Source: a virus. From it: a stretch of 38,254 bases of DNA. The notes under the pieces are model-generated. The model searched no databases. It was not told the DNA's origin and saw only the letters and a program-made list of their open reading frames with translations. Every line of letters begins with the position of its first letter. Position 1 is the first letter of the stretch. The position numbers and the translations under genes are program-made. The DNA is taken from the IMG/VR virus record IMGVR_UViG_3300010354_015404, positions 1 through 38,254 of that record; one strand, 5' to 3'. Shown one piece after another: positions 1,445-37,484 of this stretch.

Positions 1445-1460
1445 ACTCCAATATAGGAGT
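1445..1460 (-). promoter_or_regulatory. RBS-masking hairpin before glycosyltransferase
   Basis: On the minus strand ACTCCTATATTGGAGT forms a perfect 5-bp stem with a 6-nt loop. Its right arm contains the GGAG that serves the GTG start at 1439. The left arm lies immediately after the late-promoter-like motif, so RNA started at that promoter (predicted near 1454) would lack the left arm. The stem is short, so its effect is inferred. Confidence 0.5.
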
Positions 1461-1467
1461 ATTTATT
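1460..1467 (-). promoter_or_regulatory. late-promoter-like motif
   Basis: AATAAATA on the minus strand, differing from the T4 late consensus TATAAATA at one position. It ends 20 nt before the GTG start at 1439 and overlaps the stop codon of the upstream GT8-like gene. Same motif and near-identical spacing as four other sites in this window. Confidence 0.6.
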
Positions 1468-2143
1468 TGGATTGATATTGTTGGCAATGCATTGTTAGTT
1501 TATGCTCAAAGTGCCAATCCTGTGCCATACTTGTATTTGTAAATTCTTCAAATGAAGGAGCACCTAAAGTATAGTGTAACAACTTAGCCTGATCATTAGG
1601 TCCAAATTCATCAGGTAACCAGTTCCATTCAATTGGTAATGTTCCTATCCTTGTATCATCTAACCATTGAAACCTATGTAAGTGACTTCCTTTTGATTTC
1701 ATTATATATTCAGGAGTAAGGCATCTGTTAGGATAATTTTGACAGTTCCATATGATTACACTACTCCAATTTTTTCTTGGATAATCCTCATTTTTACTTC
1801 CAAGATATTTTATAGGCATGCGTGTTTTGTAATCATGTTTGACTACTTGGACATCCATATCAAATGATCTCAAATTCCATAATTCATTTATATCGGATTT
1901 CACTATCATATCTCCATCAATATAGATGGCATGACCTATATAATTCATTAAGTAGGGAACAAGAAATCTACTGTATATAAAAGCATTACTACCATCTTTA
2001 TGAGTTTCCTCATAGTCTTGAAATAAATTTAGTGCTAAAGGTATAATATTGACCGGTTTTGAACTATGTCGTATTATACTATTGGAACACACATGAAATA
2101 CTACAGCTTCACGTGGATCGTAACCTATGAATATAGGAATCAT
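1463..2143 (-). CDS. GT8-like glycosyltransferase
   Basis: Probable retaining GT-A glycosyltransferase related to family 8. The 226-residue protein opens with FIGYDPREAVVFHVCSNSI (5-23), has SRFLVPYL (58-65), and then YIDGDMIV with DGD at 76-78, the metal/nucleotide-sugar site. LLHYTLGAPSFEEF near the C-terminus resembles the conserved histidine segment of GT8 enzymes. The ATG at 2143 overlaps the preceding cupin stop as ATGA, so translation is likely coupled. It lies between a cupin of the mannose-phosphate isomerase type and a second glycosyltransferase, consistent with a polysaccharide-modifying module. Acceptor and product are unknown, and glycosylation of a virion protein is also possible. 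Confidence 0.82.
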   Translation of the reverse strand: MIPIFIGYDPREAVVFHVCSNSIIRHSSKPVNIIPLALNLFQDYEETHKDGSNAFIYSRFLVPYLMNYIGHAIYIDGDMIVKSDINELWNLRSFDMDVQVVKHDYKTRMPIKYLGSKNEDYPRKNWSSVIIWNCQNYPNRCLTPEYIMKSKGSHLHRFQWLDDTRIGTLPIEWNWLPDEFGPNDQAKLLHYTLGAPSFEEFTNTSMAQDWHFEHKLTMHCQQYQSK

Positions 2144-2484
2144 AGTTTTCTTTCAATATCTTCTTCAATACATTTTCGCCCATATTGAATTTCAACTATT
2201 TTAATAGGTTCGTCATGTTCGTTTACCAGTTGATGCCACTCTTCGTAGTCTATAAAAATACTATCAAATTTTTTATATGGTCCCATACGAACAACTTCGC
2301 CATCTTTATTAAGAGTATTCACGTAGCCTTGGCCTTCCATAAAATACCAAAATTCTTTACGGTCGAAATGACGCTGCATACTTAATCTACTATGAGGATT
2401 ACAAACAAGTTCTTTTACTTTAGTTTCAGGACCATTTTCATAAACAACTTTATAATAGCCCCAAGTTTTATCAACTTTTTCCAT
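2140..2484 (-). CDS. cupin, mannose-6-phosphate isomerase type II-like
   Basis: A 114-residue single-domain cupin matching the C-terminal isomerase domain of bifunctional ManC/AlgA enzymes, here without the guanylyltransferase half. Visible blocks are TWGYYKVVYE (7-16), LSMQRHFDRKEFWYFMEGQG (34-53, with His39 and Glu44 as likely metal ligands), EWHQLVN (82-88) and a C-terminal IVEIQYG...EEDIER. The reaction would be mannose-6-phosphate/fructose-6-phosphate interconversion, but stand-alone cupins of this type may act on other sugars. The upstream in-frame start is a TTG at 2508 inside the neighbouring gene; the ATG at 2484 leaves a 2-nt gap and has GGA upstream, so I use it. It heads the sugar module, directly after the virion genes. 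Confidence 0.8.
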   Translation of the reverse strand: MEKVDKTWGYYKVVYENGPETKVKELVCNPHSRLSMQRHFDRKEFWYFMEGQGYVNTLNKDGEVVRMGPYKKFDSIFIDYEEWHQLVNEHDEPIKIVEIQYGRKCIEEDIERKL

Positions 2485-2486
2485 GT

Positions 2487-3497
2487 TTATCCGTTTGTTA
2501 TATACCAACCTGATGGAGCAGAGTAACTAAAGCCAGTTACATTAACATATACTCCAGATGGTCTACGTTGAAATATTTTTACATTCAAAGTGCCGTCAAC
2601 ACTCTCATCTTCTGCTGGTCCAAGTGGATTATAAGAATTATCAGCTCCTGGGCCAAATGGTGATCCAGGATAACCACCAGGTCTTTGATCGCCTGAATCT
2701 ACATCATCAAATCTAAAATGAAATATTAATTTAGCATTACTTGAGTTATTAACACTTACAGTCATATTATTTTCACTATATACACCACCGTCAACTACAC
2801 CTCTTTTAAAAATTTCATAAAATGTTGAGTTGTTGGGAATATCCTGAAAACCTAAAGTACTTCCAGAACTTGTGTTCCCAGCTCCATCTGTTCGTGTATA
2901 ATTAAAGTCTACAGCGCCAACATTACTTAATAAATTTGACCAGGAGGTATTCTTAGAATTAGTTGAACCACCAGTTCTTTCAAATGTAAAACGCAGACTA
3001 CCACCTGCGTTAAAATAATATTCAAAACCTCTCCATGTAGATCCGTCAAATACTGTGGCAGTAAGTTCTACCTTAATATTCAGTGTCCTATTAGCACCTC
3101 CACCCCATCCTGATGTATAAGAATAAGTTGCAGATTGTTCTTCAGAATATTGACTACTGTGCATGAGATATTTGTCTGTGACACAGGCATTAGCTATGTC
3201 ATTGAGAAGTTTTAAATGTTCATTATATTTGATTATTCTACCTACTGCTATCTGATCAGCGTCAAATGCGTTAGTGACACCTGTTGTTCCTATTTGATGT
3301 ACTCTTGCATTGATTATATAAGATTTTAAATCATTCCATTCAGCTGCTGTGATAACTTTTGTTGGGTCAGCTACAACAGGGTTAGCTGACATTGATTGAC
3401 CATAACCTGTTGATACAGGGCCATAGACTGCTTTGATTTTGTCATATACAGTTGTATAATCTACATCCTCAATTGATTGACCAACACCGAATCCCAT
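2487..3497 (-). CDS. putative virion/fibre-associated protein
   Basis: 336 residues, not assigned to a named family. The N-terminal part has a short helical-looking region with ITAAEWNDLKSYIINARVHQ (residues about 49-68), a pattern I associate with structural proteins of marine T4-like phages. The rest is rich in Gly, Ser, Thr and Asn with alternating hydrophobic positions, as expected for beta-rich fibre or baseplate appendages, and contains a Gly/Pro-rich linker (QRPGGYPGSPFGPG). The ATG at 3497 has AAGGA six bases upstream. It lies 10 nt after a tail fibre gene at the end of the fibre block, which supports a structural or host-contact role. An assembly factor for the fibres cannot be excluded. 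Confidence 0.6.
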   Translation of the reverse strand: MGFGVGQSIEDVDYTTVYDKIKAVYGPVSTGYGQSMSANPVVADPTKVITAAEWNDLKSYIINARVHQIGTTGVTNAFDADQIAVGRIIKYNEHLKLLNDIANACVTDKYLMHSSQYSEEQSATYSYTSGWGGGANRTLNIKVELTATVFDGSTWRGFEYYFNAGGSLRFTFERTGGSTNSKNTSWSNLLSNVGAVDFNYTRTDGAGNTSSGSTLGFQDIPNNSTFYEIFKRGVVDGGVYSENNMTVSVNNSSNAKLIFHFRFDDVDSGDQRPGGYPGSPFGPGADNSYNPLGPAEDESVDGTLNVKIFQRRPSGVYVNVTGFSYSAPSGWYITNG

Positions 3498-3507
3498 ATC
3501 AAATCCT

Positions 3508-5361
3508 TTATAAAATTACTGCTTCTATAAGTTTTATACCAACTTGATTTGAAGATTCTAAAGCGATGGCAAAAGTGTTAGAGCTGTTATACATATCATG
3601 TATAGCAGACCCGTTTGACCCAGCCATTAACTTTTGTCCCTTAATAATCATGCCTTCAACTTTTACAGGTACACGACCTTTTAGTGCTACTATAGTACCA
3701 TGTTCTAAATCTTTATTCATCAAATAAGCAGGATAAGCACTGACTACACCTATTGCTCTTGTACCAGGAGTACTGGCTGTAACTTCTTTTTCACCGCCTA
3801 CAATCAACACAGTGCCTACTTCATATTCCTTATCTGCCAAATATTTTTCAGCTAAGTCAGCATATTTAGCACTGGTTGACAGCCCATCAAAAAAAGCAGT
3901 TGTCAATGTAGAAGTAGTTGGATTGTATGATAGATTAGGTGAGTGTACTTTAAATGTTTGAAAACCTGAATTACCATCAACGAAGGTTAGGTAATAATTA
4001 CCTGCATCAGTTTCTTGTTCAACAGATAACTTTGATGCGTCAAATGAACTTGGTAGTAGAGAACTAAATGTTTGCCAAGCTAAATTGTTAGAATTGTTTA
4101 CAGTGAGTACACTACCAGCTGCACCTTTATTTAAAAATGCTGTGACATTAGGTGATGTCTGATATGGTATATCACCTGCACCACCCCCAAACAAATTAGA
4201 GGATTGAGTAGCTAATCCTATAAATCCTGCCGCTGTAATCTTTCCTTGGTTATCTCTTGCTGCAATACTATTGGCATCAGCTGCAATGGTTGCACTGTAA
4301 GATACACCAGATAAACCAGCTACTGGCATTGAATCTGCCACAGTAGAAACAGTAGCTCTTCCTACAAAATTATTAGCATATACATTATTATATTCATTGT
4401 TTATAGCACCTATATCATATTGATCTGCTTCACCAGGCACTATACTGGATCCAATTAATTTCATTGGAGTCTTAACTGCTGTACCAGTCTTTGTTTTGAA
4501 AACGATAGCACTTCCGCTAATTAAATTCTCTAAAGTTGGGTTATTTGTAGAATTATCTATGTAAAATTTAATATCATTATCAGTACCTAAGACGTAACCA
4601 GGATCTTCAAATTTCACTAAGGATGAGAATACTGCATTACCTGTTCTTACAAGGTTGCCTGCTGTAACAAGATTTCCATTTGAATCTACAAGACCTAATG
4701 CGGATGACGCTGTACCAAAATATATGAATTGATCTTGACTAATTCCGTCAGTGTTTCGTGTACGAGCTAAGGTTATGCCCTTTTTAATCAAGCCTCCTGG
4801 AAATAATGCTAATGCCCCACCTGAAGCCAATGAATTAGTATCAGGTATTGTAAATTCATTGTTGCTAATAATAAAAACAATATTACCATTGACCTTGGCC
4901 TGCACAATAGCTCTTGAAATTCCGTTGATATCTGTTACTGCTACGCTACTTAATTCAGTGCTGGCAGCTCCTTCTACAGCTTGTGGACCAATCAATTTGA
5001 AATCTGTACCATCAAATGCAAAAAGTTGATTTGTGCTCTGTTTAAACCAAAAATCTCCGATGGCTAAACCTGCAGGTGGTGTAGCTCCAATTTCAGCTCC
5101 ACCAGTGGTTCTAAACTTATCCCCATCATAAAATTTCAATTTTTTACCAAGACTATCGTACCATAATTGGCCTGATATTCTACGTGGTGGGGGAGTTGTA
5201 CCTGCAAAATTTTCCAACATGTGAACCATGTTTTCATTTTGTATTTCGCCATAACCAGCATAATTTTTACCTACTAACTTAATGTCTAAGGTATTATCTA
5301 CAGTTCCATCCTCTACTGTAGCCACTTTTACGCCGTTAAATTTAGTAATATTATATGGCAT
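3508..5361 (-). CDS. tail fibre with DLAEKY-type C-terminal domain
   Basis: 617 residues; first of three paralogous fibre genes as read from the left. The N-terminal anchor (1-130) has VEDGTVDNTLDIKLVGKNYA, ENMVHMLENFA and two copies of a G.[FL]W[FY] unit (SGQLWYDS, IGDFWFKQ), each followed by a DG turn, and ends in LIGP. The middle is beta-rich and variable. The last 121 residues begin SAKYADLAEKYLADKEYEVG and include RAIGVVSAYPAYLMN, resembling the C-terminal chaperone/self-processing domains (peptidase G2-like) of phage fibres; cleavage is not demonstrated. It has its own promoter-like motif and a strong SD (GGGG) before the ATG. Likely role: receptor contact at the distal tail. Confidence 0.85.
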   Translation of the reverse strand: MPYNITKFNGVKVATVEDGTVDNTLDIKLVGKNYAGYGEIQNENMVHMLENFAGTTPPPRRISGQLWYDSLGKKLKFYDGDKFRTTGGAEIGATPPAGLAIGDFWFKQSTNQLFAFDGTDFKLIGPQAVEGAASTELSSVAVTDINGISRAIVQAKVNGNIVFIISNNEFTIPDTNSLASGGALALFPGGLIKKGITLARTRNTDGISQDQFIYFGTASSALGLVDSNGNLVTAGNLVRTGNAVFSSLVKFEDPGYVLGTDNDIKFYIDNSTNNPTLENLISGSAIVFKTKTGTAVKTPMKLIGSSIVPGEADQYDIGAINNEYNNVYANNFVGRATVSTVADSMPVAGLSGVSYSATIAADANSIAARDNQGKITAAGFIGLATQSSNLFGGGAGDIPYQTSPNVTAFLNKGAAGSVLTVNNSNNLAWQTFSSLLPSSFDASKLSVEQETDAGNYYLTFVDGNSGFQTFKVHSPNLSYNPTTSTLTTAFFDGLSTSAKYADLAEKYLADKEYEVGTVLIVGGEKEVTASTPGTRAIGVVSAYPAYLMNKDLEHGTIVALKGRVPVKVEGMIIKGQKLMAGSNGSAIHDMYNSSNTFAIALESSNQVGIKLIEAVIL

Positions 5362-5378
5362 TCTTCACCCCTCTTCCT

Positions 5379-5386
5379 TATTTATT
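5379..5386 (-). promoter_or_regulatory. late-promoter-like motif
   Basis: AATAAATA on the minus strand, ending 17 nt before the ATG at 5361, in the 36-nt gap between two fibre genes. A purine-rich Shine-Dalgarno region lies between the motif and the start. Same motif and spacing as four other sites. Confidence 0.65.
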
Positions 5387-5397
5387 GTTATCTAACA

Positions 5398-10445: not shown

Positions 10446-10446
10446 A

Positions 10447-11055
10447 TTATTCACCCATTAACCCAGTTAAACTTTGTACTCGGACTGTGTAATCAATTTG
10501 AATAAGGCGGTTTAAACTTTTTTGTACAGGATGAAATATAACATGTGTTAGTAATCTTTCTCCACCTGATTCATTATCTGTGACTAAGCCTAATTCATCA
10601 AAAACATATAAACTATTATTATCACTGGTATTATCAAAGGCTTCTTGTCCATTTGGTTCACCATAGTCTAACAAACAAGTAACAAATACATCTGTATAAG
10701 TTGTTCCTGTTACATGCCTTGTTTCAATATAATTTCTAACAGGATCTACGTTTGCAGGATTAGCATCATCTACTACTTTACTATATGTTTTATTGTATAA
10801 ATTAGCATTGACCCCAGTGGTATTTGGGGTAAGATAAGTGATTATACCTGTAGGATCGACGGCAGTTCCTCCATTACCAAAAATCATCTTAGTTATGAAA
10901 CCGCTACCAGAATTGGCTAAACTGTTAGCAAGGGCTATACTCATGTTTTCATAATGAATAGCATTTCTTTTATTGATGTAGACTTCTTGAGAACCTGGAT
11001 CCCAAATTTTTATGTGCCCTTCTACATGAATTCCGCCAAAATCTCTTGTTTGCAT
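10447..11055 (-). CDS. conserved structural protein near tail fibres
   Basis: 202 residues; I do not know a named function. The sequence has GHIKIWDPGSQEVYINKRNA (14-33), MIFGNGGTAVDPTGIITYL and a C-terminal LLTHVIFHPVQKSLNRLIQIDYTVRVQ, which reads as a compact beta-rich domain rather than a fibre shaft. No signal peptide or membrane segment is seen. The ATG at 11055 lies 18 nt after a late-promoter-like motif, so it probably begins a transcription unit that continues into the three paralogous fibre genes. This position suggests a baseplate-fibre adaptor or fibre-anchoring protein, but that is inference. Confidence 0.7.
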   Translation of the reverse strand: MQTRDFGGIHVEGHIKIWDPGSQEVYINKRNAIHYENMSIALANSLANSGSGFITKMIFGNGGTAVDPTGIITYLTPNTTGVNANLYNKTYSKVVDDANPANVDPVRNYIETRHVTGTTYTDVFVTCLLDYGEPNGQEAFDNTSDNNSLYVFDELGLVTDNESGGERLLTHVIFHPVQKSLNRLIQIDYTVRVQSLTGLMGE

Positions 11056-11073
11056 GTTTTTTCTCTATCAAAA

Positions 11074-11081
11074 TATTTATT
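11074..11081 (-). promoter_or_regulatory. late-promoter-like motif
   Basis: AATAAATA on the minus strand in the 46-nt gap after the protease gene, ending 18 nt before the ATG at 11055. Same motif and spacing as four other sites. Confidence 0.65.
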
Positions 11082-11101
11082 ATTTCTAATATATGCTATG
11101 T

Positions 11102-12688
11102 TTACCTTCTTACACGTTGTCGTGGGTATAATCTTCCAGAACTTGGTCTTGGCTTATAATTTAGTTTGGGCCATGTGGTGCCAGAATCCTGCCTTTCCTT
11201 GTTAAAATACAAGTATCTATTAGGAGATCCTTGCAAAAATGCATAATCTGAAAAACTTGATCCTACTTCTGTAATTTGATTTTGCTTGGCAGTTTTAATC
11301 AAATAATCTAAGGCCTGATTCTGATTCATAGTTGGATAAGTTTCTAAAATACAGGCAAGAACTCCTGATACTTGAGGACTGGCCATACTTGTACCTGAAT
11401 ATTTTAATAAAAAATAACTACTATTTCTTGAGTCAGATACCCCAGTTCCTACCATAGCACTTATTATTCTACTTCCTGGTGCATACACATCTATTCTTGG
11501 GCCACATGAGCTGTAAGTAGCTTTTGATTCATTGGCTAAAGTTGATATAGCCCCTACACAGATGGCTTGATTGCCCCGAGTTGGACTCATACCTCTATGG
11601 TAAAAAAACGTGCTACCTCCCCAAGTAAAGCTATTATTATAGTCTTGGCCACCATCTATATCAATCTTTAGACTATTATTACCTGCTGCCCCTACTATAA
11701 TGATTCCATCATCGATTGCCATTTCTTGATCAGCTTCTATCGAAGGGCTTACAAAAGGAATAGCATATAAGTATACTCCATCGTTTAATAGCCCACAACT
11801 GGTCAAAAAAGCAGATGTAAGTCCGCTGGTATATTCTACTCCCCTAAAAGTAATCTTTGTTATACTGGATATATCAAAATTAGTTGTATACTCATAACCC
11901 CAACTATTGTTTACTATAGTAGGATTTTTTCTACCTGTAGTTTGATTTATAGGTTTATTATTGTGCCAAAGCCTAACATAATCAAAGTAATCTTCGTTAA
12001 CAGGATTAATATCTCCACCATACACGTACATATTATAGATATTAGCCTTTCTTGCCCAACCTTGAGTATTACCGGCTACAGTTCCAGCTACGTGAATACC
12101 GTGTTGGTTATTAGCGCCTGTATATGGCCCATATTGGTACGTTCCAGATGGAGTTGCATGTTGTAACCAATTATATTGAACTACACGACTACCTCCTGTT
12201 CCATCTGCATTAACTGCAAATTCAGGATGATTAGGATCAATAAATCCGTCCATTATTACAACATCTACATTTCTTCCTTCTGCATTAATTTGTACTGTAC
12301 CTGTTTGAGTAGCTGTCCCATCGCTACCCCAATTATTACGTTGAAGACCTTCTATGCAACGTAATAGAGCCCAATTTTTATGGGTATTTGAGTTGCCACT
12401 ACTTTTGTCCCAGAAGTTACTATTGTCAGTCCATAAAGGTTTAATAATAGCTCCTTTGTCTTTTGGCGTCAATTCTACTGCCAACACTCTGGGATCTTGT
12501 CTTATTTGTTCAGCTTCTTCGTCTGTGAGCAAATAGTGAGTATTCCTACTTATTTCTCTTCTATGAACAACATCAATAGCTCTATTTGGAATATATAAAT
12601 TACCTCCAGGTGTTTCCATGTCCTCATAGAAATCATCTAAATCCTCAAAATTTATTAGGGTAATTATATATTCTCTTAGTTCGCTCAT
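11102..12688 (-). CDS. subtilisin-like serine protease (S8 family)
   Basis: 528 residues with a complete subtilase triad: Asp147 in [15 protein letters not shown], His196 in HGIHVAG, Ser434 in [11 protein letters not shown], and oxyanion Asn337 in GAAGNNS. Residues 1-75 ([15 protein letters not shown]... [21 protein letters not shown]... DPRVLAVE) resemble an inhibitor I9-type propeptide, so activation by self-cleavage is plausible. There is no signal peptide, and the arginine-rich tail ([15 protein letters not shown]) is unusual. The ATG overlaps the stop of the collagen-like gene (ATGA), so the two are probably translated together. The position among fibre genes suggests a virion-borne protease or a processing enzyme for structural proteins. 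The substrate is unknown. It is unlike the T4 prohead protease gp21. Confidence 0.95.
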
Positions 12689-13674: not shown

Positions 13675-13676
13675 GA

Positions 13677-25600: not shown

Positions 25601-28007
25601 TCTTTAAATCTTCAAGATTATTGTAATCATCATAAACATCTAAGGAAAAATCATTTACTTTTAAAACTTGTTGGCCGTTTTTTGAGTAGTATTCATTTTT
25701 ATAAATTCTAACAATAGGTTGCACTATATCAATATGATTTACAGTCCATCCATTAATCAATGCCTTAGTTTGATTTATAGTATAAAATTCTAAGTATTTG
25801 TTAGCAATAATATCGTCTATAACTGTAATATCAATTTTATATTTAAAAGTATCATTAATAAGATTAAAATCAAATACAATATCACCTATATTATTAATAT
25901 TTCTGTAGGTTAAAGGAAAACCTAATTCTTTATCTATAGTCCCTGTTCCAACCTTATATGAAAATAATTTTGTACCTTTAAATGTACTTGAATCATATTT
26001 TGAGTTATCAGTCAATTTAATATGTTCATCATCAAACAATTCAAACAATGGCTGTTGATTAATTTGTGTTTTATTTTGTCCTAAAGTCCAAGAATTACCA
26101 TCAAACCACATCATTTTACCGGTGTATTGAGTTCCTGATAATATTAATACTGTTTGATCTTGTTCAGGATCACTGTCTTGTTCTCTGTTTAAATGAATTA
26201 CACGTTTGGTTATACCAGTTTTTTCATCATATAAATCTATAAATTCTACTTTGAAAATTTTATTTTTTACATAGATGTCGTTATCACCAGTAAACAATAC
26301 CCTATGACCAGTCAATAATGGCACTCCATCTACATTATACCCTGGACTACCTTCAATAATACTAAACACATCTGTGGTAAAATCATCAACAAGATCAATG
26401 TTTGGTTTGCTCCTATTACCGAAGTTAAACAAACGTATATTAGGCTTAAACTCAATAATAGGTCGTAAGGCTCTTTTATCCTGATCAAATACTGGAGTTT
26501 TACCTAATACCTTGGCAGTGGTTTCAATTATATCCTTGTGAAACCAACGATTATATCTACTCCAAGAATTTCTATCCTTGCTGCTTCTGTTTATAACAAT
26601 GTAATCTTTATCTAATGCAGCATATTTTATGTTGTTAAATGCTAATTCATCAAATCCTGTAACATCAAAATTTACGTCCACGTTGTAGGCTATATCATTT
26701 ACTACTTCTAATGTAGTTTCGTCAATAAGACTAATACCTTCTCCAACACCTTCTACGTAAAAGTCTTTGTCTCTATAATATTCTGGAAAAACTAAACCTC
26801 TAAAGCGTATTTTCATGCCATTAGATAATTTTAAACCATTGCTTACGAAGTCTTTTTTGCCAATAATTTCTTCATCTACATTGATAATACTATTTTCATC
26901 TATGTCAAAAATTTTAAAAATACCAGATGTATTAGCATCGTTTTCACTTACATAATACAAAATATCAGGTGTACGTGTACCAACTGTAAATTCTAAAATA
27001 CCATGTTTGACATTAAAATTTTTTGTTTCTTTTAATACACCATTGACATATTCAAAAGTTTTTATACCATCAAGATATCTGTATTCGTCGTTAATTCTCT
27101 TAATAAAAAAGTCAACTACAACTACTTGACCTAATGTTATATCTTTTTCTAATTGTAAAACTTTTTTCCTATTGGCATTAATATATGTTGTAAATTTATC
27201 TTGGGGTATTTTATTTCCATCAATGTAAACTTCTACAAGGAAATTATCTATAATATCATTATCAGTTAATATATCTAAGCTAAAATTATTTTTTCCATGT
27301 TGTGCATAGTTAAACGTAGTTGAGCCTCTGAACTTAGGTGTAGCACTGCTAACTTTGGCTGTTTTTACTGCAAAAGGATGGTCAGGGCTATTAATTTCAA
27401 ATCTATATGTTTGCCCTCTGTATAATCTTAAATCAGGGTTGCGTGTTAATGCATCTGGAGTAAACAAGTAAGCAAAATTATCACCTTCATCCACAACTTG
27501 TATGTTGTAAGTACTGGTGGTATCTAATGTTTTTTGTCCTCTAATTGGAATAGTTTCAGGCCCATATGGCAACCAGTAATATTGTAGATAATTAACAAAT
27601 TTATCCCAATCAATATGCGGATCCCAACTATAAAATTCTTGTTTATTAAGCCGTTGATGATTTTCTGTAAGACCACCTAATACACTGATACTATTAATAT
27701 AATCTATATAATCTTTAAAAAAACTGGTATTGCCTAAAGTATCCTCAGCCATTAGACAAGGTTCAAGCTGATAATTATTCCTATCTTCTGTAATTTCCTT
27801 TAGGAATATATCATCACCTTTAGATGCTTTACTGTTTTTTCTACCTATGAAACCATTTAACCTACGTGCCGTTCCGTTTTGAATTAAGGGATCAAGTGTT
27901 CCAGATAAAAACTTTTTATTGGTATCTGTTCTAAAATAACGAGGCAAAAAGCTTTCACTTTTTCTCTTACCTTTGTTATCAATAGGAACTCCGTATTCTT
28001 CAGACAT
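13677..28007 (-). CDS. giant modular virion protein (4776 aa), wedge/gp7 position
   Basis: One uninterrupted 14.3-kb frame; ATG at 28007 shares its A with the gp6 stop (TAATG), with AGGA upstream. The N-terminus has [20 protein letters not shown], a form I associate with large structural proteins of marine phages. Modules seen, approximate residues: W/Y units like CBM5/12 chitin-binding motifs starting at W1538, W1669, W1848, W2294, W4061, W4523 and W4553; an FG-GAP/WD-like beta-propeller at 2262-2860 (FGHRVAV, FGDSITI, FGYSVSI); GxGY repeats at 3247-3310 and 3611-3670; repeated beta-sandwich-like units with E/Y-type turns; and a C-terminal region ([31 protein letters not shown]). No catalytic motif was recognised. 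Its place after gp6 suggests a baseplate wedge or outer baseplate component replacing gp7 and perhaps gp8-gp10. That function is inferred. Confidence 0.85.
14280..14441 (-). other. tandem pair of CBM5/12-like W/Y modules
   Basis: Within the giant protein, two adjacent copies start at W4523 ([17 protein letters not shown]) and W4553 ([18 protein letters not shown]). Each follows W-x5-Y-x2-N[DQ]-x-V-x-Y. They are the closest-spaced of seven copies in this protein. Sugar binding is inferred from the motif only. Confidence 0.6.
19430..21230 (-). other. predicted beta-propeller region of giant protein
   Basis: Covers residues about 2260-2860. Repeating blades carry an FG turn followed by a strand and a D-G/N turn: [57 protein letters not shown] and [18 protein letters not shown], each followed by a V.VY or V.IY strand. 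This matches FG-GAP/integrin-alpha-type or WD-like propeller blades. A CBM-like module is inserted after the first blade (W2294). Confidence 0.7.
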
Positions 28008-31000
28008 TAGTTATATCCTGTTTTACTAATTATTACCTGTTGTGACACAATATTATTCTCATAATTTAATGTTCCAGAGGTCAAAGAACTTGCTGTTAAT
28101 GTTTCTATTACTTCAATATCATCAGTAGTAGCACCATTTATAAAAATTTGATCATTTTCAGCTTTAATTTCAAATAAAGATCCAAAGGCTAATTGCTCAG
28201 ACCTTGGAACTATTACAATATTAACAAGAAAAGGTGCAGTTCTATTCATAATGTAAGCTACCAGCTCACTAAAATAAAAACTATCACCAAAATCCCAATT
28301 ATCTAAACTAAAAAATTCGTTTATTGAATTTAACACACGACTTTTTATTTCATTATCACTAATAATTTGTTCTATATTTTTAATAATTTTAAATGATGCT
28401 CTTAAACTTGGTATAGCTTTACTACCAAATAATACCTTATACTTGACGGGGTGATATATAACTTCATCACTCATAGCCTTTATAGCATTTAAATCTGTGC
28501 TCAATGTTAGGAATAATTGATCACTACTTGGTGGCATAGGTTCATCAAGAATAGCACCATTTAACCATTGTCTAAAATTGATATCATATTGTTTTGTTAA
28601 TACATATAAATCCATCAAATTACTTTGGCCAGGATCTATACGAGCTTCATAATCTGCACTATGACTGTATTGAAACTTTAGATTATCTCTTCCTTCAAGT
28701 ACTTTATAATCAAGATTAGCCATAAATTTACCTAATAATACATTATATTTGAATAATGTACTTGTTTCTAAAGCATACACATATGTCCCATCAATTTCAT
28801 AAGGTTGAGAATAACTCATGTCCTTAACTACATTTACTTGATTTTGTCCGTTATCTTTAATTATACTTTTATATCTATAGTCATATTGCCCAGTTTCTGT
28901 TTCATATTTTTCTAAAATAATAAAATTATCTAAGATGATGACCCAATCTTGAGGAGTTTCATCAGGAATATTGCCAACATTGGCATTGACTAATGATTTA
29001 TAGATGTAATTTTTATACAGCACAAGGTTATCTAAAGAATAACTTTGAGTAATATTCCAAAAACTATAACTTGGTTTTATAATTACATCAAATAATTCTG
29101 GATCATCTACAATATTATCATCATTTTCATCAAAAAAACTGATTTCAACCTTTCTTGTATCAACATACCCATCAGTCCCTATATATTCATCTGTAACTTC
29201 CCAGTCTAAGTTGTAATTTATTATACCTGTATTATTAGGATTAGTATTGATGTTTAGTAAACTGATTCTATCTTTAATAATTTTATTAGTTTTGGTATCG
29301 TATACTTTATTAGATTTTTCAAAATAAAATCTAATTTTTTTATCACTTTCAAAAATATAACGAGTATTACGTGATGTTACTGTATAAAATTCACTATCTG
29401 TTGTAAAACTTATCATCCAACTGCTATCTAATTTTTGATTACTAATATCACCTGCACTACCTATACTAAATGTTTCAGTTAAATTAAGATTAACATCAAA
29501 AACAATTTTCCATTCTTTACTATCTATATCATAGCGTAGACCAAATTGCTTATTTGCATAAATTAATTCGCTGATTATTTCTATAGTTTCAGTATCTAAG
29601 CTAGTTCTCCATCGTGGAATGATACTATCCACAATAGCTCCTTCTGGAATTGGTTGGTTAAGAACTACAGCGCCAGTCCCATTGGTTAATTCTCCTGTTC
29701 CTGTTCCTAAACCGTTATTATCTAAACTAACTACTTTGGCCCATAGATAACTTACAGTGTTAGGTATATTTTCAGTAACATTAACCAAAACATTATTACG
29801 ATTTTTATTGAATAGTTTACCTGATGGAGCTACAAATTTTATCAATGCATTTGACTCAAGATGTCTTAAAATAGTGCTTGTATTTCCTATAACTTGATTA
29901 CTGTTATCTTTGAACTTGCCTGTACTTTGATTATAGCTCTCACTATTTTTAAACCAACGAATATTAAAAATTGTTCCAACATCTTGTTTGCCAAATCTTG
30001 CATAATAAAAATTACGTAAGTTTGTATTCTGTAAAAAAGGTAAAATTTGATTAGTAACAATACCTAATATATCTATTCTATTTCTATAGCTAAATCTAAA
30101 ACTTTCATTGTATTCTTCTTTATATAATATTCCATCATCACTAAAAAGATTTACACTACTGTATTTGCCAGTTGGATCAATTAAGTCAAAATATCTGCTG
30201 ATACCACTACTAGTTCTGTTCACTGCTTTTACTTTAAGAACATCTTGATCTACACTTAGAGGGCTAATATTATAGTCCTCAGCAGTTATCATTCTATTCT
30301 GTGTATAATAAGTAGCTGGTGCTTTATTCTTAATTTCATCATCGGTTTCACTTGGACTGCTATTAGATACACTGACTTGTAGACTCATTGTGATGGTCAT
30401 ATTCTCTAACTGTCCTGTATTTGATAGATACCCTATATCAATGCTTACATTACGTAAATCTTTTGGATTTATTGTATATGACTGACCATTACTTACTCTG
30501 TAATATATTCTAAATTGTCCTGCTGGTATATTTCCAAATACCCCATCTCCAAATATTAGACTTATTCTATCATTGGTACGTGTTACAACATTATAGATAT
30601 TTCTAATATCTTTCCTTAAACTATTATAGATAATGTTGTTTGCCTCAAAATTGGGAACTTGCTCCCAATATTCACTTTCAACACCATTAGCATTAAGTCT
30701 ATAAAGCCACACGTCCGAATTATTAATATTAATAGCGTCAATGTCTACTATTTCATTTGTTGTTGGCTGTGTTAAATTAAATGTACCTGTATTAAGACTA
30801 CCTTGTCTAAAGTGTAAAAAGAAACCGTTACTATTGCTGGCTGCTCCTCGACCATCATCTCTATAAAGAAAACTTAGTCTTCTACCTGCCAATGGTGGCT
30901 CCTCTACTATTGATCCATCCTTTATTATTGTACTGGCTATTTCAAAATTTACATTACGTCCATCAACAGGTTTAGTGAACCCATATACAGGCACGCTTGT

Positions 31001-31579
31001 TCCAATACTTTGCAATCTATACTGCTGTGTGGGTATATTATTAATTTCAGCACTGCTATCTGGACTGCCCCATTGAGCTGTAATAGGTAGAGCAGCATTT
31101 ACTATTCTTATAAATTGATCCTGCCAATTAGCATTACTGGGGTCATTCCATATAATTTCTGTATTACTGATATTTCTACCATTACTATCTATAATATCTT
31201 CTGTAGTGCTTATGCTTTCCCATTTAAGCAATCCATTTGCAGGTTTATTACGTTTTGCATTATAGCTTAATGTTCTGGCCAAACGAAGTATGCTTTCTCT
31301 ACGTTCAGCTAATTCAAGGAAATTTTCTCTGGCATTAAGATCTACACGAAAAGCAAAACTTTGACCAAGAAAAGCTATCATATCTATTAAAGCAAGATAT
31401 TCACTACTTTCTACATAATCGTTGAAATCTTCAGGATAGTTTTCTCTAAGGTAATTGATCATTACCCTACGTAGATTCTCAAAGTCGTAACTGGTAAAAT
31501 CAGCGTTTTTGAAGCTTTGATAGATGCGCTTCCAATCTTCCGCTACCAGTAACCTATTTTGTCTATCAGTTGATGACAT
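28007..31579 (-). CDS. gp6: baseplate wedge protein gp6-like (baseplate J family)
   Basis: Forms the inner ring of wedges around the tail tube in T4-type baseplates. The 1190-residue protein opens with the gp6 pattern: KRIYQSFKNADFTSYDFENL (18-37), YLRENYPEDFNDY (43-55), EYLALIDMIAFLGQSFAFRV (60-79) and DLNARENFL..ERRESIL. Near residues 415-430, YYTQNRMITAEDYN is a strong baseplate J signature. It is much longer than T4 gp6 (about 660 aa). The excess includes a CBM-like W/Y unit at W841 (SFWNITQSYSLDNLVLYKN), a module otherwise seen in the giant protein downstream. The ATG at 31579 has AAGGA and lies 17 nt after a late-promoter-like motif. Its stop is coupled to the giant gene. Confidence 0.93.
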   Translation of the reverse strand: MSSTDRQNRLLVAEDWKRIYQSFKNADFTSYDFENLRRVMINYLRENYPEDFNDYVESSEYLALIDMIAFLGQSFAFRVDLNARENFLELAERRESILRLARTLSYNAKRNKPANGLLKWESISTTEDIIDSNGRNISNTEIIWNDPSNANWQDQFIRIVNAALPITAQWGSPDSSAEINNIPTQQYRLQSIGTSVPVYGFTKPVDGRNVNFEIASTIIKDGSIVEEPPLAGRRLSFLYRDDGRGAASNSNGFFLHFRQGSLNTGTFNLTQPTTNEIVDIDAININNSDVWLYRLNANGVESEYWEQVPNFEANNIIYNSLRKDIRNIYNVVTRTNDRISLIFGDGVFGNIPAGQFRIYYRVSNGQSYTINPKDLRNVSIDIGYLSNTGQLENMTITMSLQVSVSNSSPSETDDEIKNKAPATYYTQNRMITAEDYNISPLSVDQDVLKVKAVNRTSSGISRYFDLIDPTGKYSSVNLFSDDGILYKEEYNESFRFSYRNRIDILGIVTNQILPFLQNTNLRNFYYARFGKQDVGTIFNIRWFKNSESYNQSTGKFKDNSNQVIGNTSTILRHLESNALIKFVAPSGKLFNKNRNNVLVNVTENIPNTVSYLWAKVVSLDNNGLGTGTGELTNGTGAVVLNQPIPEGAIVDSIIPRWRTSLDTETIEIISELIYANKQFGLRYDIDSKEWKIVFDVNLNLTETFSIGSAGDISNQKLDSSWMISFTTDSEFYTVTSRNTRYIFESDKKIRFYFEKSNKVYDTKTNKIIKDRISLLNINTNPNNTGIINYNLDWEVTDEYIGTDGYVDTRKVEISFFDENDDNIVDDPELFDVIIKPSYSFWNITQSYSLDNLVLYKNYIYKSLVNANVGNIPDETPQDWVIILDNFIILEKYETETGQYDYRYKSIIKDNGQNQVNVVKDMSYSQPYEIDGTYVYALETSTLFKYNVLLGKFMANLDYKVLEGRDNLKFQYSHSADYEARIDPGQSNLMDLYVLTKQYDINFRQWLNGAILDEPMPPSSDQLFLTLSTDLNAIKAMSDEVIYHPVKYKVLFGSKAIPSLRASFKIIKNIEQIISDNEIKSRVLNSINEFFSLDNWDFGDSFYFSELVAYIMNRTAPFLVNIVIVPRSEQLAFGSLFEIKAENDQIFINGATTDDIEVIETLTASSLTSGTLNYENNIVSQQVIISKTGYN

Positions 31580-31596
31580 AAACTATCCTTATTCTT

Positions 31597-31604
31597 TATT
31601 TATT
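31597..31604 (-). promoter_or_regulatory. late-promoter-like motif
   Basis: AATAAATA on the minus strand in the 45-nt gap between gp25 and gp6, ending 17 nt before the gp6 ATG at 31579. An AAGGA Shine-Dalgarno lies between the motif and the start. Confidence 0.7.
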
Positions 31605-31624
31605 GCAGCCTTTTAACTGCTACT

Positions 31625-32065: not shown

Positions 32066-33645
32066 GATTTAACCTTTGAAAATGTGTCGTACTTAGTAGT
32101 ATATTTCTTAAAGAATGAAGGTGTTATTAGTATACTTTCACTATTACCTTCATATCTACCATCTATATCACGATCTGTTTTATCTGGTTTATAATCCTCA
32201 GGTGAAAGATTTTCGTGACCTGGCCATGGTTCTTTTATAGGCACTCTACGTACAATAGTTTTAAACAGTTCGCTTCCTTCTTGATCAGGTACACTGTGGG
32301 TCTTTAATTCTTGTGGTTTAGTAGCCAAAGCAGCAGTTGCAGCCTCTGGACCATTCATATGTATTACAGGAGCGGTTTCAATTATAGCTGATCCTGATCT
32401 GGTTTCATTATTATCACCACTTGTCTCAAAAATATGACCACCAACATTTGTATCATAATTACCAATAATGTTGTATAGGCTATTACCGTCCACAGTTTCA
32501 TCTTTATTTTGTTTTATATGAATTTTTTGGTTTTGATCAATAATTAAAATATTATCTTTGCCCACTTGAGTGTGCATTTCTTCTTTTACTTTGATATTAA
32601 AATTACGTCCTGCTTCCATATTAATATCACGATCGGCATATAAATTAAAATCGTTTTTAGTATGAACATTTATACTATCTTCACAATAGATATCCATCTT
32701 ACCATCACTGGTTAATTCTATCCATGTAGTACCACGAGCATTACCTATATAAATTAAATCTTCACTATTATGTAATAATATTTGATGACCTGTTCGAGTA
32801 CGTATGCGTATGAGTTCATTATGGGGTATTTTATAGTCACCATCTGTTTCATCATCTTCTACAGCAGCATAATCTGGTGGGCCTTCACTGGCATTTTTAC
32901 GGCGTATAAACTTATCATCACCATCGTCCATAACAAAAGTACTACCACCTAATCTACTCACAGGCATTTTGGCCTTACTTTCATACTTGCCAACCTTGCC
33001 TATGGGACCACTTTTGTCTATTGGACCTGGTGTGCTAATACCAAATACAGCACTGGGCCATTCTCTACGAGCACTACTGGTTGTTATACCTCTAATATCA
33101 TCCTTTAATAAACCTTGTGCCTGTAGAGTGAGAGTAAAAGGATGTTGTGGTTTCTTAATTCTTGTTGTATCTTGGCATATCAACAGATCAGCTTTTTTAT
33201 TATATTCTGCTACTGGAACACGTTCCTCAATTCCGTCTTCATGATAAATGGTTGATGCCATACCAGGTATCATAAAATTAGCATCCTTAGTTTGAATACT
33301 GCCTAAGTAATAACCTCTTGATGGATCACCGTCAACAAAGAAACAAACTACTGTGGTACCAACATCTGGAGGTACCATCCAAAAACCATAACTTTTTTGA
33401 GTACCGTTGTAATCATTAGTTTTGTTATTGAAAATTTCGCTGGTACTACCTATGAATGGGCTACAATATTGTACAGTTGCTAATTGTCCCGTACGTTCTC
33501 TATCATTACCTACTTCACGTAATTTTTCTACTTGTAAGGCACCCATGTAGTTAGGATCAAGATGACTCACTACAACAGCCAAAATGAGTCCATCTTCTTT
33601 TGTTTGTCCTACATAGTCTAAACTTGATCTGTTAAGCTCACTCAT
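32062..33645 (-). CDS. gp5: baseplate central spike, gp5/VgrG-like, no lysozyme domain
   Basis: 527 residues. Residues about 15-120 form a gp5/VgrG-type OB fold (GLILAVVVSHLDPNYMGALQ, MVPPDVGTTVVCFFVDGDPS, GYYLGSIQ). Residues 279-334 (IRIRTRTGHQILLHNSED, GTTWIELTSDGKMDIY) and the following D-N rich repeats to about 415 (DFNLYADRDINMEAGRNFNI, DNILIIDQNQKIHIKQNKDE) form the trimeric beta-helix that makes the membrane-piercing needle. The C-terminal VRRVPIKEPWPGHENLSPE matches gp5 homologues of marine T4-like phages. The lysozyme domain that T4 gp5 carries between the OB fold and the needle is absent; its place holds a roughly 150-residue linker. Its start is coupled to the hub gene (TAATG). Confidence 0.9.
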   Translation of the reverse strand: MSELNRSSLDYVGQTKEDGLILAVVVSHLDPNYMGALQVEKLREVGNDRERTGQLATVQYCSPFIGSTSEIFNNKTNDYNGTQKSYGFWMVPPDVGTTVVCFFVDGDPSRGYYLGSIQTKDANFMIPGMASTIYHEDGIEERVPVAEYNKKADLLICQDTTRIKKPQHPFTLTLQAQGLLKDDIRGITTSSARREWPSAVFGISTPGPIDKSGPIGKVGKYESKAKMPVSRLGGSTFVMDDGDDKFIRRKNASEGPPDYAAVEDDETDGDYKIPHNELIRIRTRTGHQILLHNSEDLIYIGNARGTTWIELTSDGKMDIYCEDSINVHTKNDFNLYADRDINMEAGRNFNIKVKEEMHTQVGKDNILIIDQNQKIHIKQNKDETVDGNSLYNIIGNYDTNVGGHIFETSGDNNETRSGSAIIETAPVIHMNGPEAATAALATKPQELKTHSVPDQEGSELFKTIVRRVPIKEPWPGHENLSPEDYKPDKTDRDIDGRYEGNSESILITPSFFKKYTTKYDTFSKVKS

Positions 33646-36164
33646 TATTCTGCATCTTGTATAGTTCTTGCACTGTCAGAATCTTGAGGAGTTTCAAGCA
33701 CTGTAGGTGTAGTAGTTGGTGGTGCGAAATCAACAGCATTTTCACCACTGGTAGCCCCAGTACCCCCAGGTGAAACAGAATCATAATTGGGCATACGTGT
33801 TAGCTCCAAATCTTGAGAAAACATACCTCTATCAAACATACTTTCTAACATATTAACTTTGTATAGTCCACTGATCTGTGGTACAATTTTTTCATTAGGA
33901 AAATCATATAAATTACCATTAATATCTATGGGATTTCTAAAATTTATTGTAATGTAAACTTCAGAACGTTCATTATTAATGGCTCCACTCTTGTTAATAT
34001 TTTTATTGCTTGTACCTTTTTCAGTAAAATTACCTATACCACTGTCACCAAGGAAAAAAGGATCACCTAAAATTTTCATATTAACAGTAATCATATCAGC
34101 ACCTTTGCTTATGCTTTCCATAAATTGCTTGGTTATCAGTGTAGCAGGATCATCTGGAAAAATACCCCCTCCAGTTTTCTTAATTTTTGTACGATCTGTA
34201 TTAATCAACACTTTTGTGGCAGAATCATTTATGTTTACATTACCATGTTTGCCTTGATTATATTCATCCTTAGCATCATATAAGGTACCATCTGCTTTTC
34301 TTCTAAATTGTGTAACTTTACCGTTTACTACGACTGGACTTGTAGGTGTAGCTACTGTAGCATTTTTATCTCTTTGTACAGCATCTTGGTTATTTTTGCC
34401 AGCATCACTGCTCATAGATGTGTAAAATGTTGTGTTAAATTTTATTTGAAAATCTAAGATTTCAGTATTTTTACCACTATAATAGTAATTGTATTCTTTT
34501 AATGATGTTTTCTTGAGCTCACCTACACCACTTGGCTTTGTCTCTGGACTAATAAATTGACTATGTTGCACTTCAAATGGTATTATTCTAAATACTGTAA
34601 GATATGGATTACGTCCTAATTTACCAACATTTTCATCAGTGTCCAAAACATAAACTTGACTGCTAATTTTATACCATTGAATTTTTCCTTCTTTACTAAT
34701 GTTGGCAGGATCTAAAGCACTTATTCCATAACTGCTACTGGATAATACTTCATTCAATATTGTAGGTATTAATGTTCCTTGTTTAAATGTGGCCAAACCC
34801 TTATTAGATGTAAGTTCAATTCTACCACGTTTTAAAACCTTAGTTTTTTCATCGTAAGAAACACCCTCTTTACCAAATATACCCTGTGCTTTACGTCTAT
34901 CTGTAAAACCAATACTAGCCTTACCTACAGGATTGACATTGGCTTTTTGTACTAAATTGTATCCGTCACTACTTAACTCTAAACCTAATTGTTTGAATAA
35001 TTTGTCATTCTTTTTAACATTAGGATTGGCTGTAGCACCTTTAGGACTACTACTATCATCTGTTGTATCACCTTTGCCAGTTGATGTATCTGTGGGAAAC
35101 AAAAATACTATACGATCAGGAATAGATATTTTATTTTTTATAGCTTGTTCTACGAGCGCATCATTAAGTATACTTTGAACACTCATTGGACCATCCTGTA
35201 TCATTTGTTGTACTGTACTACCTTCACAGGTAATATCCACAGGTATTGAACTTACAGTATCACTATAGGCTTGATCATTCCAAGCTACTGCTTCACATTC
35301 ATATAAACTACCACGTTCAGTTACACGTAGATTAATATTAGTGATCCTTATAGGAAAATGACGTTTGGTTACAGCATAATCAATATTTTGTGTATCTGCA
35401 CTATAATGCCCTTTAAATTGTAGAGTTAAAAGTACAGGCATAACTACCCAATTTTCATAACCGTTATTAGCAGCTGCCATTTGTAAAGATTGGAAGAACA
35501 TACCAAAGCTATTTGGTTCAAGAATATTAAAACTCATTGTAGTAGCATTAGTATTTTTTGTTTGGGCATCCATACCAATGACACTTTTTATTCTTACATT
35601 ATCTATAAAAAAATCAAATTTACCTTCAGGATTATAATCTGGAGGATTGCGATCTATGTCACCTAAGTTAGGACTGGCATAGGCCTTAAGTCCCACGCGA
35701 TTTTCAGGATTACCACCTGCACTTTGAAAAATTATGTCACCAATATCACCCTTCTTATATGTTTCATCTGGAAAATTTATTTGAAACGGTGTCAGCACAC
35801 TCATAGTCCAAAAATAATTTACCACTGCATAGTTAGACAAAATATTGCGTAGGGGTAATTCATTAGCTTCAAATTCAACTACATTTTCTTCATCAAGATT
35901 GCTTAATAATTTGGCTCTTTCTGTTTTTATAACACCACCAATTATACCTGCTGCAAGTGGATTAACACTTTGCCCAGGAATCTTATTCAATATTTGACTG
36001 GGATCAAGATTAGGTATTTGTTTAAGTTTATCTAATTGACCCCCAAGATTTTGTGCTGCATTTTTTAATCCATCTACTACACCATTTTTATTAAATGCTC
36101 CTGCTACGGCATTGGCTACACTTACGGCTGCTGTGGCTTTGACGAGATTTTTAAGTGTTGGCAT
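33645..36164 (-). CDS. putative baseplate hub protein
   Basis: 839 residues, not matched with certainty to T4 gp27 but in its expected place just upstream of the spike. Residues 8-24 are Ala/Val-rich (VKATAAVSVANAVAGAF). Residues about 100-330 are beta-rich and include FDFFIDNVRIKSVIGMDAQT, TTMSFNILEPNSFGMFFQSL, ITNINLRVTERGSLYECEAV and YSD. The C-terminal part has ITVNMKILGDPFFLG, VYITINFRNPIDI and GLYKVNMLESMF, motifs seen in large hub-like structural proteins of marine myophages, and ends in an acidic Pro/Thr tail. The ATG at 36164 has GGAG six bases upstream and follows the gp53-like gene by 1 nt. Expected role: hub that joins spike, tube and wedges. Function rests on context plus general family feel. 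Confidence 0.72.
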   Translation of the reverse strand: MPTLKNLVKATAAVSVANAVAGAFNKNGVVDGLKNAAQNLGGQLDKLKQIPNLDPSQILNKIPGQSVNPLAAGIIGGVIKTERAKLLSNLDEENVVEFEANELPLRNILSNYAVVNYFWTMSVLTPFQINFPDETYKKGDIGDIIFQSAGGNPENRVGLKAYASPNLGDIDRNPPDYNPEGKFDFFIDNVRIKSVIGMDAQTKNTNATTMSFNILEPNSFGMFFQSLQMAAANNGYENWVVMPVLLTLQFKGHYSADTQNIDYAVTKRHFPIRITNINLRVTERGSLYECEAVAWNDQAYSDTVSSIPVDITCEGSTVQQMIQDGPMSVQSILNDALVEQAIKNKISIPDRIVFLFPTDTSTGKGDTTDDSSSPKGATANPNVKKNDKLFKQLGLELSSDGYNLVQKANVNPVGKASIGFTDRRKAQGIFGKEGVSYDEKTKVLKRGRIELTSNKGLATFKQGTLIPTILNEVLSSSSYGISALDPANISKEGKIQWYKISSQVYVLDTDENVGKLGRNPYLTVFRIIPFEVQHSQFISPETKPSGVGELKKTSLKEYNYYYSGKNTEILDFQIKFNTTFYTSMSSDAGKNNQDAVQRDKNATVATPTSPVVVNGKVTQFRRKADGTLYDAKDEYNQGKHGNVNINDSATKVLINTDRTKIKKTGGGIFPDDPATLITKQFMESISKGADMITVNMKILGDPFFLGDSGIGNFTEKGTSNKNINKSGAINNERSEVYITINFRNPIDINGNLYDFPNEKIVPQISGLYKVNMLESMFDRGMFSQDLELTRMPNYDSVSPGGTGATSGENAVDFAPPTTTPTVLETPQDSDSARTIQDAE

Positions 36165-36165
36165 C

Positions 36166-36465
36166 TTAGGCTCCTAATACTTTGAATAAACTACTTTTCT
36201 TTGGCAAATATATTTGAGTGCCTGGAATAAAATCAAATATAGGATCCTGTAATACATTTAAGTTACGTTGAATAAAAACCCACCATAAGTTATGGCTTCC
36301 ATAAAGATCATAAGCCAATAAATCTGGTCTAAAAGTATATTGACTTTCTATAGTGTACAAATAATCATCAGATTCAGCACTAACTGGTCTAATACTTAAT
36401 ATATCCAAGTAATTATTAGTTACCGGAGTTTCCACATAGGGACTTGTTGGGCTATATTTGGCCAT
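36166..36465 (-). CDS. LysM-type baseplate wedge protein (gp53-like)
   Basis: 99 residues. The segment YTIESQYTFRPDLLAYDLYG (37-56), then NLWWVFIQRN (59-68), DPIFDFIPGTQIYLPKK (74-90), has the order of a gp53/LysM-type baseplate protein: a conserved aromatic pair after YG..NLWW and a closing PGTQIYLP strand. T4 gp53 (196 aa) also carries a LysM-like domain and links wedges to gp25 and the tube. This copy is much shorter and keeps only the LysM-like core. Its start shares a base with the stop of the tube-initiator-like gene (TAATG), and it leads into the hub gene with a 1-nt gap. The alternative is the P2 gpX type of small tail LysM protein. Confidence 0.75.
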   Translation of the reverse strand: MAKYSPTSPYVETPVTNNYLDILSIRPVSAESDDYLYTIESQYTFRPDLLAYDLYGSHNLWWVFIQRNLNVLQDPIFDFIPGTQIYLPKKSSLFKVLGA

Positions 36466-37457
36466 TAGATAAATCCATCCTTTACATAACCACCATTTAT
36501 AAACGTTTCAAGATTAAATTTGCGTATTCTTGTTCTGCTGTAAACTGGTAATAAACTAACATTGAGTGTACTTTGAGTAGGAACATGGCTATCATCTGAA
36601 CTCGATGTTGACCCAGTACTACCAATACTCTTAGGCTTAGTCATGCTTAAACCTCCACTTATTAGATTAGCTACATTGCCTACATTTCTTAAAGTATTAG
36701 CTGCTTGAGTAAGACCTGCTGCACTGGTAACGCCTGCTATCTTGTTGGCCATATCAGATATAGCGTTTGTAGGATCTCCAGCACCAAATCCGCCACCTGC
36801 TTTGCTTGGAGGATTTTCTATATTTGTGGTGATATAATCAACTTCTTTAGGTAGTGTCATACTAAAACTTTTAACCACCACAGGTACATCCTTAAAAACA
36901 TAGTCACCATATGCATTAAAGTATAAAATTATGGGAGGGTTACCAGCGAGACTACTGTCACCTGTGAACATTTTTGTTGCACTACGCAGAAAATGAACCA
37001 CTGACAACCAATATTGAGCCTGCACAGCATCTTCTACAAAGAAATCACCAGATACACTGATTTCACTGACTCTACTACCTTGATAGCTAACAAATTGAAA
37101 ATTATGATGTGTAAGGGGAGTTTCAGTATAATTTGCTTGACTACTTATAGTAATAGTTGGAGTGTAGGGAAAGATTAACCCTCCTGAATCACGCAAAGGC
37201 TTAAATAAGTTACTTGAAACATATGGCATAACACTACTGGGGAATCCAAGTCTAACACGCCAATCCTTAGGATCACCATCTGAACCACTTTGAGCAGTGG
37301 CTACCTCTTTGGGAGAGAAACTTTCTGCATTTAACGGTAAATTTTTACTGCGTAAAGCACTCATCAACCCGCTGGCACCTGCTCCTATGGCACTGGCTGC
37401 TGCTGCGGTTGCTGCTCCTGCCACAGCGGCTGTGGCTAAATTTCTTAAGAATGACAT
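36465..37457 (-). CDS. putative tail-tube initiator-like baseplate protein
   Basis: About 330 residues from the ATG at 37457, preceded by GGGGA. The longer frame starts with TTG at 37475, inside the promoter region, and is rejected. Residues about 3-34 are Ala/Gly-rich and could form a hydrophobic helix (AAVAGAATAAAASAIGAG). The core has DWRVRLGFP, GLIFPYTPTITISSQANYTE (93-112), GSRVSEISVSGDFFVEDAVQ, PPIILYFNAYGDYVFKDVPV and SFSMTLPKEVDYI, an arrangement I associate with gp48/gp54-type tube-initiation proteins in marine T4-like phages. It is the first gene of the minus-strand block and has its own late-promoter-like motif. A hub or tube-cap protein is an alternative. Confidence 0.65.
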   Translation of the reverse strand: MSFLRNLATAAVAGAATAAAASAIGAGASGLMSALRSKNLPLNAESFSPKEVATAQSGSDGDPKDWRVRLGFPSSVMPYVSSNLFKPLRDSGGLIFPYTPTITISSQANYTETPLTHHNFQFVSYQGSRVSEISVSGDFFVEDAVQAQYWLSVVHFLRSATKMFTGDSSLAGNPPIILYFNAYGDYVFKDVPVVVKSFSMTLPKEVDYITTNIENPPSKAGGGFGAGDPTNAISDMANKIAGVTSAAGLTQAANTLRNVGNVANLISGGLSMTKPKSIGSTGSTSSSDDSHVPTQSTLNVSLLPVYSRTRIRKFNLETFINGGYVKDGFI

Positions 37458-37476
37458 TTTATTCCCCTTTGGCAAA

Positions 37477-37484
37477 TATTTATT
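37477..37484 (-). promoter_or_regulatory. late-promoter-like motif heading the baseplate block
   Basis: AATAAATA on the minus strand, ending 19 nt before the ATG at 37457, within the near-palindrome CAAATAAATATTTG (37473-37486). It shares one base with the -35 box of the opposing gp55 promoter. Confidence 0.7.

Follow-up and report, generated by a model that had tools for sequence, protein, structure and literature searches.

The window, which is the whole stretch of DNA analysed here (38,254 bases), is an entire virus record that is itself a fragment, and the motif counts given for it apply to this fragment only. Its right end encodes a gp55-type sigma factor on the plus strand, and divergently from it runs a minus-strand block of genes in which the word AATAAATA occurs shortly before five start codons. 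The genes and predicted promoters are these:

37535..38254, plus strand: gp55-type late sigma factor gene, cut by the window end (PHROG 12791, E 2.6e-68)
37484..37512, plus strand: predicted sigma-70-type promoter of gp55, TTGACT (37484-37489), 17 nt, TATACT (37507-37512)
37477..37484, minus strand: predicted late promoter 1 (AATAAATA), 19 nt before the ATG at 37457
36465..37457, minus strand: virion structural protein, first of the baseplate group (PHROG 12050, E 6e-41)
31597..31604, minus strand: predicted late promoter 2 (AATAAATA), 17 nt before the ATG at 31579
28007..31579, minus strand: baseplate wedge protein, gp6-like (PHROG 10646, E 8.6e-300)
11074..11081, minus strand: predicted late promoter 3 (AATAAATA), 18 nt before the ATG at 11055
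10447..11055, minus strand: conserved phage protein of 202 aa, first gene after late promoter 3 (PHROG 11259, E 2.7e-72)
5379..5386, minus strand: predicted late promoter 4 (AATAAATA), 17 nt before the ATG at 5361
3508..5361, minus strand: fibre-like protein of 617 aa, first gene after late promoter 4 (PHROG 22593, 19602 and others)
1460..1467, minus strand: predicted late promoter 5 (AATAAATA), 20 nt before the GTG at 1439
666..1439, minus strand: protein of 257 aa without a family match, first gene after late promoter 5

Late promoter 1 is predicted to serve the baseplate genes, namely the gene at 36465-37457, a gp53-like gene, the gene at 33645-36164, and gp5-like and gp25-like genes. Late promoter 2 is followed by the genes for the gp6-like wedge protein, a giant protein of 4776 aa, a collagen-like fibre and a subtilisin-like protein; late promoter 3 by the conserved phage gene and fibre-like genes; late promoter 4 by the 617-aa fibre-like gene and those after it; and late promoter 5 by the 257-aa gene and then kdsA. 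All five motifs in the window thus precede baseplate, fibre or adjoining genes.

A preliminary description had located five copies of the word at these coordinates, 19, 17, 18, 17 and 20 nt from their start codons (in order from 37477 to 1460), and had read them as a late regulon. Scanning both strands, we find exactly these five copies, all on the minus strand and at these distances; the GTG start at 1439 is backed by a TTG at the same place in the near relative G010. Dinucleotide shuffles predict 12.95 copies (sd 3.84), so the word is depleted in the window and rarer than chance would make it, yet all five copies stand before starts. The sites had been said to cover almost every promoter-sized gap of the block; in fact it has five gaps longer than 20 nt, and these are exactly the five motif sites, with late promoter 5 overlapping the TAA stop of the upstream gene. 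In a window that is ~67% AT, an AT-rich 8-mer chosen after looking might be a coincidence noticed after the fact, but the probability that five random placements would all fall 10–33 nt upstream of one of the 19 starts is ~7e-12, no other 8-mer exceeds two copies in that zone, and the independent enrichment in relatives described below refutes chance, to which we assign a negligible probability.

Searching with gp6 and gp55 yielded 91 loci from a broad clade, many of common ancestry, so that locus counts are not independent. Across the 92 sequences (window plus loci), AATAAATA ranks first among 8-mers in the zone 15–35 nt upstream of starts, where 89 of its 107 copies lie and 0.9 would be expected; the two most shared orthologous sites recur in this count. 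The check proposed in the preliminary description, comparing frequency before starts with expectation, favors the regulon: with gene starts taken from a simple calling script, enrichment of the 8-mer in front of starts is ~100-fold across the window and its relatives, and window coding sequence contains no copy. When whole records are taken one by one, words with the core ATAAATA lead before starts in all but G006, the smallest record. The motif had been described as the T4 late consensus but for its first base, and seven of its eight bases do agree with TATAAATA; the 8-mer itself stands, but its core is more correctly given as ATAAATA with a nearly free base at -13, which is A here, G in many relatives and T in T4. 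Among 235 sites from nine records, composition is flat upstream of the motif and AT-rich downstream, and we found no conserved -35 element upstream, as in T4.

The motif is also conserved by place. All 78 readable sequences have late promoter 1, which reads TATTTA on the gp55 strand, and of 56 distinct relatives 54 carry N[AC]TAAATA at the gp6 junction. The motif is rare at junctions inside the block (gp53 1/69, gp5 0/63, gp25 4/56, giant gene 3/46 and one further junction 0/15). Fibre and glycan starts, where the 91 loci offer no usable upstream sequences, were compared by means of G010, in which all five sites lie before the same five genes, each identical at 8/8 positions (counterparts of late promoters 3, 4 and 5 at 27302, 33214 and 36521). 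At four of these sites the 60 nt upstream of the motif are just 13–33% identical in ungapped comparison; at the remaining one, conservation extends over the gp55 intergenic region (72%). G010 has one further copy outside the five, at 17505.

Inside genes the word is avoided. Relative to synonymous-codon shuffling, a null model without codon-pair preferences under which control words of like composition mostly come out near 1, the coding sequence of the window has no AATAAATA where ~8 are expected, and ATAAATA is seen once against 25 expected. The corresponding figures are 3/56 in G004, 1/37 in G006, 7/70 in G002 and 3/72 in CBB, with weaker avoidance in PA5oct, G001 and T4 (20/51 in T4). Pooled over the window and four relatives, ATAAATA is the most avoided of the 8192 strand-merged 7-mers in coding sequence (17 seen, 214 expected). 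The avoidance is equally strong on the sense and antisense strands. That coding sequence is nearly free of ATAAATA in either orientation suggests a word potent enough, by itself, to do harm elsewhere. We found no earlier description of such avoidance in the limited literature that we searched.

Strand symmetry also bears on whether the motif could act in translation, either as an AT-rich enhancer or by belonging to a longer ribosome-binding region. The fixed short distance at which it stands upstream of the Shine–Dalgarno sequence would fit such a role, but antisense copies are avoided no less strongly than sense ones, within one block the motif singles out the genes that head a group from those inside it, and the signal is one exact 7-mer, not AT-richness in general. 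We therefore regard a translational role as very unlikely.

Two further observations concern words in coding sequence. The single ATAAATA in window coding sequence belongs to a perfect TATAAATA at 24338-24345 on the plus strand, antisense within the giant gene. In the coding sequence of G002, G006 and G008, 7-mers containing CTGCAG and AAGCTT are strongly avoided (ACTGCAG, 54 seen and 144 expected, pooled), which looks like restriction-site avoidance.

The link with virion genes could be examined in PA5oct, taking as virion genes those whose proteins the record marks as found by mass spectrometry. In its first 150 kb, 12 of 51 virion genes have the motif before them versus 5 of 173 others (Fisher P 1.6e-5), and none of the 114 genes in its early block does. 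The PA5oct gene at the place matching 36465..37457 has a product found in the virion by mass spectrometry. The jumbo phage phiKZ transcribes with its own RNA polymerases. Its composition is similar, and neither avoidance in coding sequence (48 ATAAATA seen vs 62 expected) nor enrichment at starts (three sites before 217 starts, 0.97 expected) gives a clear signal there.

The gene at 37535 was already assigned to the gp55 type in the preliminary description, and the assignment holds: PHROG 12791 is annotated 'sigma factor for late transcription', and a profile of 18 gp55 homologues, searched against the PDB, matches T4 gp55 alone (7d7c_F, E 7.5e-12, profile positions 131-237), over the sigma domain 2 region of the latter. 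The complete protein, 273 aa, was read from an overlapping contig (IMGVR_UViG_3300051212_001215) that is 99.995% identical to window positions 18010-38254 and runs ~1.25 kb past the window end. An AlphaFold model (20 sequences) had a mean pLDDT of 54, too poor for a fold search.

Taken together, the computed position, enrichment, in-gene avoidance, conservation at orthologous starts, virion-gene link and gp55 homology make it very probable that the five copies of AATAAATA are gp55-dependent late promoters of the T4 type, and the late-regulon reading gains from the enrichment, the virion-gene link, the conservation at orthologous starts, the gp55-family sigma factor and the lack of a clear signal in phiKZ. 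Recognition by a host sigma factor or another phage sigma factor is a shade less probable even than a translational role; it could appeal to the missing clamp-binding tail of this gp55 (see below) and to the fact that gp55 binding to the sites is predicted, but these sites have the very core of T4 late promoters, the similarity to T4 gp55 extends over its sigma domain 2 region and phiKZ, with its own polymerases, gives no clear signal.

Under the gp55-dependent reading, the sigma factor encoded divergently at the right end would replace the host sigma factor on host RNA polymerase and direct it to N-ATAAATA as a -10-like element, with no -35 element required. Transcription would start ~6 nt downstream, leaving leaders of 12–15 nt, little more than a Shine–Dalgarno sequence, and the baseplate, fibre and sugar genes would thereby be expressed late. 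For late promoter 1, T4 geometry (-13 to -6) places the predicted start at ~37471. The block had been described as split into at least five late units, which is overstated: a terminator scan found no more terminator-like hairpins than chance would give, and the five gaps contain none on the minus strand. Five initiation points is therefore the safer wording, and the block is possibly read through. An uncultivated jumbo-phage lineage gains a predicted late regulon that can be tested.

Missed in the preliminary description was the overlap of late promoter 1 with gp55's own promoter. Base pair 37484 is both the first of the gp55 -35 box and, on the opposite strand, position -13 of the late promoter. 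The arrangement is nearly invariant in 78 relatives: the composite TATTTA[T/G]TTGAC-N17-TATAAT occurs in 74 of 79 sequences of the broad jumbo-phage clade, with a spacer of 17 in 72 of the 74, and bases just outside it are near background. The other five comprise one truncated sequence, two in which the elements stand one base closer and two in which TATTTA accompanies a different promoter. In RaK2, PBECO4, BF, CBB, GAP32 and XbC2, TATTTA lies 33–34 nt from the gp55 TATAAT, compared with 30 in the composite, and RaK2-, PBECO4-, BF- and CBB-type phages have similar spacing with other -35 elements. A divergent pair of this form is limited to gp55 in five of the six records having one; G001 has two further candidates.

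RNA polymerase on DNA covers far more than the gap between these two promoters, so that two polymerases cannot occupy both together. We infer, tentatively and as one possibility, that the late sigma factor limits its own synthesis through the shared promoter: polymerase carrying gp55, when on late promoter 1, would obstruct the promoter of gp55, and polymerase with the host sigma factor on the gp55 promoter would in turn obstruct late promoter 1, giving a mutually exclusive early-to-late switch with negative feedback and without T4 clamp coupling. A more sober explanation is that a short intergenic region is simply packed tightly. If self-limitation holds, the timing and the limiting of a late sigma factor in such phages can both be modelled simply, through the promoter that gp55 shares with the baseplate genes. 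In the limited literature searched, we found no description of overlapping divergent early and late phage promoters with a sigma factor.

Conservation extends to the 17-nt spacer of the gp55 promoter, in the window and in the related loci L012-L091 (A at +11, T at +14 and TA at +18/+19 from the -35 start, with a TRCRTA-like core). This exceeds the need of a plain sigma-70 promoter and perhaps marks an activator site. The 372-kb record G001 has a second divergent early/late promoter pair at 318699, and ~30 early-type promoters, TTGAC-N18-TATAAT, before genes.

Late promoters of this kind are already known, as shown by the prediction of ATAAATA in CBB and GAP32, by A at -13 as a common variant in the T4 family and by the poor conservation of -13; what goes further is the lack of the T4 clamp-binding tail in this gp55, with no gp45 clamp found, and the shared promoter. 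For Pectobacterium phage CBB, 35 ATAAATA sites upstream of structural genes had been predicted, and the motif had been predicted in Cronobacter phage GAP32 as well (PMC5259590). Both resemble this phage in having the heptamer upstream of structural genes, a gp55-like sigma factor and a divergent baseplate/gp55 layout. They belong, however, to another lineage and have a GGAACG-type element in place of TTGAC at the -35 position of the gp55 promoter; -13 is A at all five sites in this phage, and called starts in CBB are more distant from the motif (median 34.5 nt, against 17–20 nt here).

T4 late promoters, TATAAATA, are recognized by gp55 acting together with gp33 and the gp45 clamp, and A stands at -13 in nine of 50 listed (PMC2988020). 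They share with those of this phage the lack of a -35 element and a short distance to the start codon, but T4 gene 55 is not back to back with a baseplate gene, whereas gp55 here is divergent from one. The position -13 is poorly conserved among T4-like phages, and Aeh1 late promoters read CTAAATA (PMC1524935). Similarly, -12 is C in the ACTAAATA found among relatives at the gp55-shared site (40/74); this C is rare at the gp6 site (3/54) and is therefore mainly a feature of the overlapping site here.

The sigma factor differs from that of T4 in its long N-terminal extension and in its C-terminus: T4 gp55 ends in SLDFLYEAND, where its clamp-binding epitope has been placed (PMC2988020), whereas C-termini here are variable and not hydrophobic. 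The gp45 clamp families PF02916 and PF09116, found in T4, were absent from eight jumbo relatives, and the DnaN-type clamp PF02768 was absent from the jumbo relatives searched, although a diverged gp45 clamp could have been missed by a family search. The gp45 result is in line with the reported absence of gp45 and gp33 from CBB (PMC5259590); CBB and GAP32 thus resemble this lineage in that no gp45 homologue was found, the absence of gp33 being the CBB report's (PMC5259590). Judged by sequence, coupling to gp45 through a hydrophobic gp55 C-terminus, part of the T4 system, appears to be missing here, and our claim therefore covers the promoter and the sigma factor, not the clamp-coupled T4 system. 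Across a broad clade, the T4 late promoter core is kept although the clamp coupling that defines late activation in T4 appears missing.

Among the named phages compared, PA5oct (Wroclawvirus) has the most similar gp55, with the same gene layout and ATAAATA before virion genes; it differs in preferring GATAAATA and in the greater distance between gp55 promoter and late motif (offset 52). Its ~3,857-codon gene for a virion protein (49627-61200) lies at the place matching the window's 4776-aa giant gene, which sits between gp6 and the fibres (13677-28007). Among the fibre genes, 11102-12688 resembles subtilisin-like serine proteases (mycosin and others; PHROG 3677 protease). The last unit had been described as a glycosyltransferase with kdsA; kdsA is borne out by a match above the NCBIfam cut-off, but 666..1439 has no family match to make it a glycosyltransferase. 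KdsA (3-deoxy-8-phosphooctulonate synthase, window 2-685) is encoded under a predicted late promoter beside fibre genes, and nearby are genes for a glycosyltransferase of family GT8 (1463-2143) and for a cupin resembling mannose-6-phosphate isomerase (2140-2508).
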